Shown here piece after piece: positions 35,932-59,173 of a stretch of 64,000 nt of DNA. Numbering within the stretch: position 1 is the first letter of the stretch; every line of letters begins with the position of its first letter. Under the pieces are notes generated by a model that saw only the letters and a program-made list of their open reading frames with translations, was not told the DNA's origin and searched no databases. Both the position numbers and the translations under genes were made by a program. Source of the DNA: Methanococcus voltae (GTDB taxonomy: Archaea; AGJL01; Methanococci; Methanococcales; Methanococcaceae); assembly GCF_017875395.1 (NCBI RefSeq), contig NZ_JAGGMO010000007.1:1-64000 (forward strand), written 5' to 3'.

Positions 35932-36948
35932 TTAATTTTTACATTTTTGAAATTCATTATACATTATTTTTGCAACAGCATAGCTTGGCGTGGCCAAACT
36001 TACGTCTTTATCGTATAATTCCGTGATTGATTTGATATTATATTTTGACTCTAAAGTATCTGTTAATATTTTTTCCCCAAGTCCTGTGATAATAACATTT
36101 GATAACCCATATTTTGAAGAAACAGCGGATACATTATTGTCTATTAATTTTTTCCATACTTCATAGTATTCCTTTGCAATTTGTATGCCTTCTTCTTTAG
36201 ATATTTGATTTAAATCAGCACATAATACTTTTGATATTCTAATTAAACTATCATCTACACTTGTAGATTTACCATCTGCAGTTTCACAGGTGTAGTCGCT
36301 TTCCGATATTTTATTCATTATAATGGATACATCTCCTGTAATTGCAAAGTATTCTGAAGATACATTCGATAAAGTACCTCTAAAATTAATTTGATTAGCT
36401 AAAAAGGATAATGGAGTTCTTAAAGTTCCAACATACAATAATTCGTTGTTCATTAACCTTTCTAAATCATTATCATTAGCTAAAACCTTGCCATTTTTTA
36501 TAGGTATTATATCTGTAGTGGTGGATCCCATATCAACAAATACGCAATTTTCATCAATTTCTTTTATAAATTCGGCTGTAGCTCTCCAATTAGATGCTGA
36601 AACGCGCATATGATTATTTTTAGCTTCTTCAACACTTATAAAATTCCCTTCAGTATCAAATACTGCAATGTTTTCAACAGGTATTTTATCAGCATATGCC
36701 TCTAAAACTGCGTCAAGTATCGCAATAACCCCTTCTTCTTTTGTAGCATAGGAATCTGCTAGTTCAGCAGTCATAACCAATGCTACTTTAAAATCAGATT
36801 CTGGGCAATTATTTTTGAGAACTTCGGTTAATCTATGATTTTCTTTCCACATTGGTAAATATATATGTTTTATACTATGTTTACCATTTTCCTCAATTTC
36901 TGTTATTTTGGTATTTGCTCCGCCAATATCTACGCCAATAATTTTAAT
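35932..36948 (-). CDS. mfnF: MfnF-type hydantoinase/oxoprolinase family protein (methanofuran biosynthesis)
   Basis: Resembles MfnF, which couples the tyramine-glutamate and aminomethylfuran parts of methanofuran. The Hyd/HyuA-like core has VFVDMGSTTTDIIPI near residue 137. The N-terminal phosphate loop GVDIGGANTK (near residue 5) lies upstream of the first ATG (36852). The frame is open to a TAA at 36963-36961 and contains no ATG, GTG or TTG, yet gaggg sits 6 nt before an ATT at 36948. I therefore take ATT as the start, giving 338 residues. Starting at the ATG would delete the loop. Confidence 0.85.
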   Translation of the reverse strand: MKIIGVDIGGANTKITEIEENGKHSIKHIYLPMWKENHRLTEVLKNNCPESDFKVALVMTAELADSYATKEEGVIAILDAVLEAYADKIPVENIAVFDTEGNFISVEEAKNNHMRVSASNWRATAEFIKEIDENCVFVDMGSTTTDIIPIKNGKVLANDNDLERLMNNELLYVGTLRTPLSFLANQINFRGTLSNVSSEYFAITGDVSIIMNKISESDYTCETADGKSTSVDDSLIRISKVLCADLNQISKEEGIQIAKEYYEVWKKLIDNNVSAVSSKYGLSNVIITGLGEKILTDTLESKYNIKSITELYDKDVSLATPSYAVAKIMYNEFQKCKN

Positions 36949-37196
36949 AAAAATCCCTCTTTAAACTTCACTGAATTATGGTTATACTTACATTCTAATA
37001 TATTATTAATTATTTTAAATATTATGATAATTAGTAGACTAATATATTTATGAAATATATAAAACATTATATAATTTAAAAGATATATCAAATGTTTAAC
37101 TAAAATTTTATCCATATGTTATACATAAAAATAATAATTTGCAATATGGAATAATAGCTTATTAAATTCTTTAAATTCTGTTAAGATTGATATATT

Positions 37197-56784: not shown

Positions 56785-58281
56785 TTATACTATAGAGCTT
56801 CTATATATTATTAAATAATTATTTTTATCATTTAAAAGTCCTAAATCACTTAAATCCTGTTCATTAATTATTTTTTTGTCTGTTATTAATTTATAGGTCA
56901 TATATTTATCCTCAAATTCGCAACTAGTCTTTTTATTATGCCAAATATTAAATAATTCATTTCCTAACTCGCCTGATAAATATATGTTTATTGGATTATT
57001 TTGGAAACGTTTTTCGGTAGCTTCAAACTTTTTAGAACTATTAATATTATCAAATAGTTTTAAAATCTGTTCAAACAGTTTTTCCGCATTTATTTCCTCA
57101 CAAGTACACCCAAAATCCCCTCCTATACATATTATCGGATTTTCAAAAGTTTCAATAAAATCTACTATCGAATTAGATATTGATTTTATATTTAATCCAG
57201 GATTGGTATTTTTTAATATATTTTTAGCTATTAATTCCATTCTATTTTTTAATTCAAAAGATTTAATCCTTTTAATAATATCCTCTGAACTCATCATATT
57301 CCTACAAATTTCGTAGCTTAAAATACCATTTTGAATGTGATGTACTCCAAAAATTTTTTTATCAAACTCGAAAACATGATTAATTTTATAATCTTTCATT
57401 TCCATATTATCATATTCAAATTTTAATGGATATTTTGATATAATTTTTAAATTAGGTGGTTTATCATCTATTAAATTTAGATTTAAATTTTTAATATTTA
57501 ACGATTCTATCTCATTCTTGTAGGTTTTAAACAGTTCTTTTAACATGTAGCAATTTTCTACAAATTTTAGTGTATCTAATTTCACTTTTGCAGTTCTTAA
57601 ATTTTTTGCGATGTCGTATTCTTCTAAAATGTTTGTAATCAGTCCAAATTTTGAATACACAAGACCTAGTGATATTTCAAATACGAAATAATCATATTTT
57701 GGTAGTTTTCCGTTTTTCTTTAAGTTATTTAAAATGTTTAAAACTTCCGTAGGTGTTATTGACCCTTTATTACTATTATGCAAATATACGCTATATTTAT
57801 CTGATAAAATATGATTAATTAATTCAGATGTGGATGTTTTACCTTTTACCCCAGTTATGGTAATTATTTTAGGTTTTATATCCTTATATTTTTTATTTAT
57901 TATTTCAGAAACTGCTTCATGGAAAGTTTTAAATTTAATATCTATTGCGCAATGTACTGGGGCTATAACTTCTTCAAATTTTGAATAATCAAGTCCGTTT
58001 TTTAAATTAGCTATTATTTCTAAATCTGGATAAAATTCTTTTAATTTATTATATTTTTGATATATTTCTTTATCTTTATCTGAGAATGAATTTATTCCGT
58101 TTGAAGACGATAATTTATTTAATTTGTTAATTTTTCCATAAATATCCCATATTACTATGTTTCTAGAATATTTATCATCTTTATTTGACAGATATTCTTC
58201 TGCAATATCCAAAGCACCATGATTTACATCGATAATCAGTGTTCTTTTTTTACTTTCCTTTTTTTCACTTTTATTTAAAAT
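56785..58281 (-). CDS. cfbE: Coenzyme F430 synthetase CfbE (Mur-ligase family)
   Basis: The last step of F430 synthesis for methyl-coenzyme M reductase, an ATP-dependent thiolactone/ring closure. It has the Mur-ligase P-loop ITGVKGKTSTSELI near residue 140 (numbering from 58281) and Asn-rich, AT-driven inserts. The N-terminal TLIIDVNHGALDIAEEYL, conserved in relatives I recall, lies upstream of the TTG at 58212. The frame holds no ATG, GTG or TTG between a TAA at 58299 and this stretch, but ATT 58281 follows ggggtgataaa perfectly. I start there, giving 498 residues. Family assignment is by motif and N-terminus. Confidence 0.8.
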   Translation of the reverse strand: MLNKSEKKESKKRTLIIDVNHGALDIAEEYLSNKDDKYSRNIVIWDIYGKINKLNKLSSSNGINSFSDKDKEIYQKYNKLKEFYPDLEIIANLKNGLDYSKFEEVIAPVHCAIDIKFKTFHEAVSEIINKKYKDIKPKIITITGVKGKTSTSELINHILSDKYSVYLHNSNKGSITPTEVLNILNNLKKNGKLPKYDYFVFEISLGLVYSKFGLITNILEEYDIAKNLRTAKVKLDTLKFVENCYMLKELFKTYKNEIESLNIKNLNLNLIDDKPPNLKIISKYPLKFEYDNMEMKDYKINHVFEFDKKIFGVHHIQNGILSYEICRNMMSSEDIIKRIKSFELKNRMELIAKNILKNTNPGLNIKSISNSIVDFIETFENPIICIGGDFGCTCEEINAEKLFEQILKLFDNINSSKKFEATEKRFQNNPINIYLSGELGNELFNIWHNKKTSCEFEDKYMTYKLITDKKIINEQDLSDLGLLNDKNNYLIIYRSSIV

Positions 58282-58309
58282 TTTATCACCCCTACATTAT
58301 AAAAGATAA

Positions 58310-59173
58310 CTAGCACTTCATACGGTTAATTAAGCATTTTGCTATTATTTCGTCAGCATTAACGCCCAACTGTCTAAAACCTTTAGTTCCTGGTGCCGTA
58401 TTTACTTCTACAACGTTATAATCATCATCTTTAGGTAATAAATCTACGGCCATAATGTCCCCTTTCATTACTTCAGCACATTTTAATGCTAATTCTTCCA
58501 CTTCTGAATTGATGGTTAATTCTTCAATTCCTCCACCTTTGTATAGGTTTGTTATATAATTGTTGCTTATTCTCCTATAACCACCTATAACTTGACCATC
58601 AACTACTAAAACTCTCATATCTTTGTATAATCCAGTTTCGGGGTCTTTAAAATCTATATATTCTTGTATTATCTTACTTTCCCACATCGAATTTTTTGAC
58701 ATTTCTCTTAATTCTTCATCATTTTGTGGTTTTTCTACTTTCATACCACATTTTGAGAACGAATTTTTTAAAATTAAAGGATATTCCATATCATTTTTAT
58801 TTATAAATCGTACTGCATCGTCATAATCCCTGATAAGAGCTGTTTTTGGTACTTTTATTCCCTTTTTATTTAAAATTTTAATGGTTTTAAATTTATCGGA
58901 GGAATTATATATGGTAGATAATGGATTTACGAATTTATAGTCTTCTTCCTCTAAATTTTTTAATACCTGCCAGGAATATAATGTTAATCTATCAAGATAA
59001 TCTCCAATTCCACATCTGGAGTGTATTAAGTCTGTTTCTATTTTAAAACTATCATCTACCAATAAGTTGTTTTCTGAAAGTAGTAATATTTCACAAGATT
59101 GTCCAAGTCTTTCTACTGCATTTTTTAAGGCATATATTGTGGAACCACCCTCTGCACATACGATTGTTATCAT
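58310..59173 (-). CDS. RimK-type ATP-grasp glutamate ligase (MptN/CofF-like)
   Basis: A 287-residue ATP-grasp ligase. It has LILKNSFSKCGMKVEKP near residue 137, IIQEYIDF near 166, DMRVLVVDGQVIGGYRRIS near 184 and AVDLLPKDDDYNVVEVNTAPGTKGF near 249. RimK-type enzymes in methanogens add glutamate to tetrahydrosarcinapterin (MptN) or to the F420 tail (CofF). I cannot tell which it is. The start follows aagggataaa. It lies 29 nt upstream of the proposed cfbE start on the same strand, linking it to coenzyme synthesis. Confidence 0.85.
   Translation of the reverse strand: MITIVCAEGGSTIYALKNAVERLGQSCEILLLSENNLLVDDSFKIETDLIHSRCGIGDYLDRLTLYSWQVLKNLEEEDYKFVNPLSTIYNSSDKFKTIKILNKKGIKVPKTALIRDYDDAVRFINKNDMEYPLILKNSFSKCGMKVEKPQNDEELREMSKNSMWESKIIQEYIDFKDPETGLYKDMRVLVVDGQVIGGYRRISNNYITNLYKGGGIEELTINSEVEELALKCAEVMKGDIMAVDLLPKDDDYNVVEVNTAPGTKGFRQLGVNADEIIAKCLINRMKC

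Follow-up and report, generated by a model that had tools for sequence, protein, structure and literature searches.

Candidate AUU start codons behind strong Shine-Dalgarno sites in cfbE and other genes of Methanococcus voltae

The coenzyme F430 synthase gene cfbE of Methanococcus voltae seems to start at an AUU placed behind a strong Shine-Dalgarno (SD) site, and initiation at this codon is the best-supported explanation for its start. The gene lies in the window, a stretch of 64,000 nucleotides (contig NZ_JAGGMO010000007.1, positions 1 to 64,000), whose genome (G000) was compared with six other Methanococcus genomes (G001-G006). Very probably the cfbE start belongs to a minor set of AUU and AUC (rarely AUA, perhaps ACG) starts that evolution has retained in Methanococcus. 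An AUU start had been proposed for cfbE by an earlier sequence-only reading, and this is borne out by an SD in the usual register, the lack of any other usable standard start and an SD followed by AT(T/T/C) in three species. The features are collected in Table 1.

Table 1. Positions of the features discussed. Plain numbers are window positions; other entries carry their contig or locus.
Feature	Position	Strand	Remark
cfbE, coenzyme F430 synthase	56785..58281	(-)	498 aa counted from AUU
cfbE AUU start codon (ATT)	58279..58281	(-)	ATT in G005, ATC in G006
cfbE SD site GGGGTGAT	58285..58292	(-)	register 5, dG -11.8 kcal/mol
TTG, first standard start triplet of cfbE frame	58210..58212	(-)	inside conserved NHGALD block
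cofF, gamma-F420-2:alpha-L-glutamate ligase, upstream of cfbE	58310..59173	(-)	ordinary ATG; TIGR04443 517 bits
mfnF	35932..36948	(-)	338 aa from AUU; NF040623 (MfnF) 529 bits, match to profile 1-323 beginning at residue 2
mfnF AUU start codon	36946..36948	(-)	also ATT in G006; ATG in G005
mfnF SD-like GAGGG	36955..36959	(-)	register 5
RimK-family ATP-grasp gene	G000:C1:293708-294628 (L095:13708-14628)		ATT start; tally entry C1:293678
Lrs14/Sta1-like regulator	G000 C1:22637		ATT in three species
Lipoprotein	G000 C1:191511		ATT/ATT/ATC in G000/G005/G006
tpiA, triosephosphate isomerase	L228:844-1506 (G000:C4); L269-L275		ATT or ATC start in seven genomes

The cfbE frame (58296-56785, minus strand) opens after the TAA at 58299-58297 with TGT AGG GGT GAT AAA ATT TTA AAT, and the AUU lies 28 nt from the end of cofF. 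The frame continues with AAA AGT GAA AAA AAG GAA AGT AAA AAA AGA ACA CTG and then with ATT ATC GAT GTA AAT CAT GGT GCT TTG. From stop to stop it comprises 503 codons, of which the earliest ATG is codon 250, and when the whole frame was read no ATG, GTG or TTG was found upstream of the TTG at 58212. Residues 2-14 counted from the AUU are LNKSEKKESKKRT, and the predicted N-terminal peptide region of the product is LNKSEKKESKKR. The NCBIfam profile NF033197 (F430_CfbE) scored 313 bits against an equivalog cut-off of 250, and its positions 1-376 match the product from residue 15 (AUU = 1). A start at the TTG would cut into the CfbE domain because the profile begins at residue 15 and because the (I/V)D(V/I)NHGA block, IIDVNHGALD in the window protein, is common to 21 CfbE orthologues. 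The TTG had already been placed within a conserved stretch by the sequence-only reading, and it is indeed the earliest ATG, GTG or TTG of the frame. The Mur-ligase P-loop GVKGKT and the GGDFGCTCEEI motif are intact, and PF08245 scored 27 bits (cut-off 24). By family score and motifs the window protein can be assigned to CfbE, with a predicted activity of forming F430 from seco-F430. It exceeds the CfbE of other Methanococcus by about 100 residues, which, like the rapid divergence of cfbE in this clade, is unusual for a single-copy cofactor gene.

The ATT was observed to lie 5 nt from the last G of GGTG, a spacing referred to here as register 5 and the canonical one in this genome. Register 5 was found in 132 of the 190 strong-SD first-ATG sites in the sampled 27% of G000, in agreement with the earlier claim that the spacing is that of most ATG genes. 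The calculated stability of the duplex between the cfbE leader and the 16S tail (Table 1) exceeds that of 98% of first-ATG genes; the tail, GGATCACCTCCT, was observed in G001 and G004.

The start region is retained in two relatives, where cfbE reads GGGGGCGATAAA ATT TTA AAT in G005 (80% identical) and GGGGGTGAAATA ATC TTA AAT in G006 (64% identical). Neighbouring genes show identities of about 95% and 87% to the same two genomes. Both relatives also carry an extra in-frame ATG 10-13 codons past the AUU or AUC (GAA AGT ATG GAA AAA and GAA AAT ATG GAA AAA, respectively), and G006 additionally has a GTG three codons past its AUC. Conservation of AUH (AUU, AUC or AUA) in these two genomes is therefore no proof of its use, and the codon may act there as an additional start. 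In the window genome the downstream ATG is replaced by AAA (ATG GAA AAA in G005, AAA AAA AGA here), and a CTG without an SD is the sole remaining alternative. The codon comparison gave no synonymous excess between the AUU and the downstream ATG of the relatives. In G001-G003 the ATG stands directly before the conserved block, so that the AUU column is not aligned with the ATG of these orthologues. The extra N-terminus, whose absence from homologues had been named as evidence against the proposal, is thus present in G005 and G006 and absent in G001-G003. Only three closely related species carry this 14-residue extension, and two of them have an alternative in-frame ATG; on sequence comparison cfbE is therefore not the cleanest case and ranks behind tpiA, the ATP-grasp gene and mfnF.

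The start codon of tpiA was found to be ATT in G000, G005, G006 and G001 and ATC in G002, G003 and G004, in each of the seven species behind GGTGAT or GGCGGTGGT. In six of the seven species the interval from the upstream stop to the N-x-K motif was found to hold no ATG, GTG or TTG, and the earliest standard codon lies 12-62 codons on, past this motif; in G002, codon 5 is a GTG. The N-x-K motif holds the catalytic lysine of TIM, and the N-terminus of the product matches the solved archaeal TIMs 2h6r and 1hg3. As no standard start precedes N-x-K in these six species, a non-standard start must serve tpiA. For mfnF an AUU start appears even better supported than for cfbE: the sequence in G000, G005 and G006 is AGAGGGATTTTT AT(T/G/T) AA(A/G) ATT ATT GGC, which upholds its earlier designation as a second AUU case.

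Altogether, at least six more AUU starts appear to be present in the window genome, in mfnF, the RimK-family ATP-grasp gene, the Lrs14/Sta1-like regulator, two lipoproteins and tpiA. These were drawn from the sampled 27% of the genome together with genome-wide pattern matches, and in G000 all of them, like cfbE, have the SD in register 5. The ATT of the ATP-grasp gene in G000, G005 and G006 aligns with ATG AAG ATT GGA in G001-G003 and ATG AAA GTA GGA in G004, and the next standard start lies 63-78 codons past the AUU. The product of this gene scores under the MptN, CofF and LysX cut-offs. Codons 2-19 of the regulator differ from those of G006 by four synonymous changes and no amino-acid change, and no standard start was found ahead of codon 20 in G006; translation must therefore begin upstream of codon 20. 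Likewise, no standard start was found ahead of the lipobox of the lipoprotein at C1:191511 in G000 and G006. The regulator and this lipoprotein, as well as cfbE and the ATP-grasp gene, each have AUU or AUC in both G005 and G006. The second lipoprotein, an ABC solute-binding protein whose start in G000 is GAGGTGTTTTT ATT AAA AAA, is a weaker case because five of the seven species have an in-frame GTG within the SD that could serve instead. A connection with methanogenesis cofactors, as suggested by the sequence-only reading, holds for cfbE and mfnF and is not the rule, as the same type of start is found in tpiA, the lipoproteins and the regulator.

Related sites were also seen in the other genomes. 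An adenylate-kinase-like gene (IAITGTPGVGKST) of G001 (C1:1195329, minus strand) and G006 (C1:260386) carries ATA in register with the SD and lacks an ATG, and ATA ATG stands at this site in G000 and G005. An EamA-like gene has AUC in G004 and ATG in G001, and the ribB-like gene of G004 has an AUU candidate start. A bioD-like gene of G001 (C1:1164483, in L182) has ACG behind GGTGAT at a codon that is ATG in four relatives; this ACG is possibly a start codon or possibly a sequence variant. Rejected as AUU-start candidates were apt (C1:71941), which has an ordinary ATG at codon 10, the frame at 2412, which is antisense, and candidates with an ATG just downstream of the AUU.

Start codons were tallied over sampled coding ORFs having a strong in-register SD and no standard start upstream or adjacent. 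For G000 this gave ATG 179, TTG 30, GTG 6 and ATT 4 (cfbE, the ATP-grasp gene, the regulator and the lipoprotein at C1:191511), and no other codon occurred more than once. Among strong-SD starts in the sampled parts of G000, G005, G006, G001 and G004, TTG was observed about 3-5 times as often as GTG. An enrichment test was restricted to ORFs whose next 7 or more codons held no standard start and which had an exact SD run of at least 5, counted by ortholog group; tallies and test alike were drawn from Methanococcus genomes only. Of 13 ortholog groups, 8 had an isoleucine codon at the register-5 strong-SD site (p = 5e-4, background 17.5%), and at the ten other registers isoleucine codons accounted for 12 of 74. 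With the SD run raised to 6 they made up 5/5 at register 5, and with the run lowered to 4 the excess faded to marginal (17/65 groups, p = 0.05). The earlier suggestion of searching for frames with an SD before ATT, ATC or ATA did return further genes from the 27% sample and the pattern matches. As a bare pattern, GGTGATN{2,4}ATT was no more frequent genome-wide than in the reversed control (50 vs 65); the signal appears only when SD-ATT is tied to ORF starts. Extrapolated from 5 genes in 27% of the genome, AUH starts would make up roughly 1% of genes and, when the strong-SD rule is applied to both, occur at about the frequency of GUG. The corresponding estimate from five genes in 504 kb is roughly 20 per genome, with a wide error.

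Translation of cfbE might instead begin at the CTG at 58239-58237 (ACA CTG ATT ATC GAT, giving MIIDVNHGALD), with the SD and AUU surviving as a remnant or acting as a weak additional start. This CTG coincides in position with the ATG of cfbE in G001-G003, and its use would give a CfbE equal in length to that of other Methanococcus, with no need for a clade-specific extension. However, CTG is itself non-standard and has no SD, whereas the SD before the AUU ranks in the top 2%, and the SD-AUU pattern of the other genes would be left unexplained; we regard this start as improbable. A sequencing or assembly error hiding a true ATG might be suspected in a draft of 15 contigs. The sequence-only reading judged such an error unlikely, and it is refuted in practice because independent genomes carry the same codons: ATT in G005 and ATC in G006 at the cfbE site, ATT in two genomes for mfnF, and ATT or ATC in seven for tpiA. 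Its probability is next to nil.

The unusually fast evolution of cfbE (80/64% identity to G005/G006; 101 non-synonymous vs 62 synonymous changes to G005) would fit a decaying gene that has lost its ATG and is translated little or not at all. Decay is nevertheless very improbable, since cfbE is required for F430, is present only once and keeps 498 open codons, intact motifs and a profile score above the cut-off. A regulatory role would add to AUU initiation rather than replace it: weak starts could make expression follow the stringency of start selection, as set by the level of aIF1 or aIF1A, comparable to infC and IF3 in E. coli. The retention of AUU or AUC in tpiA across seven species without drift back to AUG speaks for such a role. 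Against it, the AUU genes share no function, aIF1 has an ordinary ATG, and the strength of most of the SDs points to compensation, not to down-tuning. Overall we consider this role unlikely.

Under the preferred reading, the AUU at 58281 would serve as the start of cfbE translation. A strong helix between the SD and the 16S tail would set the AUU into the ribosomal P site, where the initiator Met-tRNA (anticodon CAU) would base-pair at codon positions one and two and the mismatch at the third would be tolerated. Two tRNA pairs are possible with AUU, AUC or AUA, and the remainder could come from a strong SD placed in exactly the right register; the protein would then begin with Met. We infer the insertion of Met, the tRNA used, the mechanism of tolerance and the protein level. 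No initiator tRNA gene was found in the sampled stretches. Furthermore, aIF1 begins with an ordinary ATG (MPEICPICGLP) behind GAGGTG in all seven species, where it showed no unusual features or sign of autoregulation. An autoregulated start of the infC type does not fit cfbE, which encodes no initiation factor.

In archaea, aIF1 is the start-discriminating factor (PMC6237735, PMC8211752). It is conceivable, though doubtful, that the third-position check at initiation is relaxed in Methanococcus, with AUU, AUC and AUA selectively kept as a regular class and the AUH of tpiA fixed genus-wide by stringency-set expression. Belinky et al. (2017) found a single AUG-to-AUU switch among 61,358 ancestral AUG starts over 36 genome triplets (PMC5622118), and this rarity counts against an AUU class, although annotations rarely allow AUU. 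The best reading of the sequence comparisons is that SD-driven initiation at near-cognate AUH forms a regular minor start class in Methanococcus that annotation has missed. Gene finders limited to AUG, GUG and UUG would truncate the products of well-studied genes such as tpiA and cfbE and misplace their starts, and M. maripaludis would offer a natural, genetically tractable system for the third-base check in an archaeon without IF3. No earlier report of AUU or AUC starts in Methanococcus was found in a search that covered few subscription journals.

Escherichia coli infC and pcnB initiate at AUU, and infC is autoregulated through IF3. The Methanococcus starts would resemble these in being SD-led AUU initiation by initiator Met-tRNA. 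The E. coli cases are bacterial and isolated genes, whereas here AUU, AUC or AUA is kept across species in several unrelated genes of an archaeon; to our knowledge, archaea are without IF3. Compared with its family (NF033197), the window CfbE shares the score above the cut-off and the conserved motifs, and its clade differs by the 14-residue N-terminal extension, internal insertions and the putative AUU start. A review of archaeal initiation gives AUG, GUG and UUG as starts (PMC7531240); GUG and UUG are likewise SD-dependent near-cognate starts in the same register, but their mismatch is at the first base and that of AUH at the third. In yeast, the single-mismatch codons AUU, ACG and UUG are used at a low level, and stringency is set by eIF1, of which aIF1 is the archaeal counterpart (PMC6898956). 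In contrast to yeast, initiation in Methanococcus would involve no long-range scanning, the SD helix would set the position, and the starts belong to main ORFs, not upstream ORFs.
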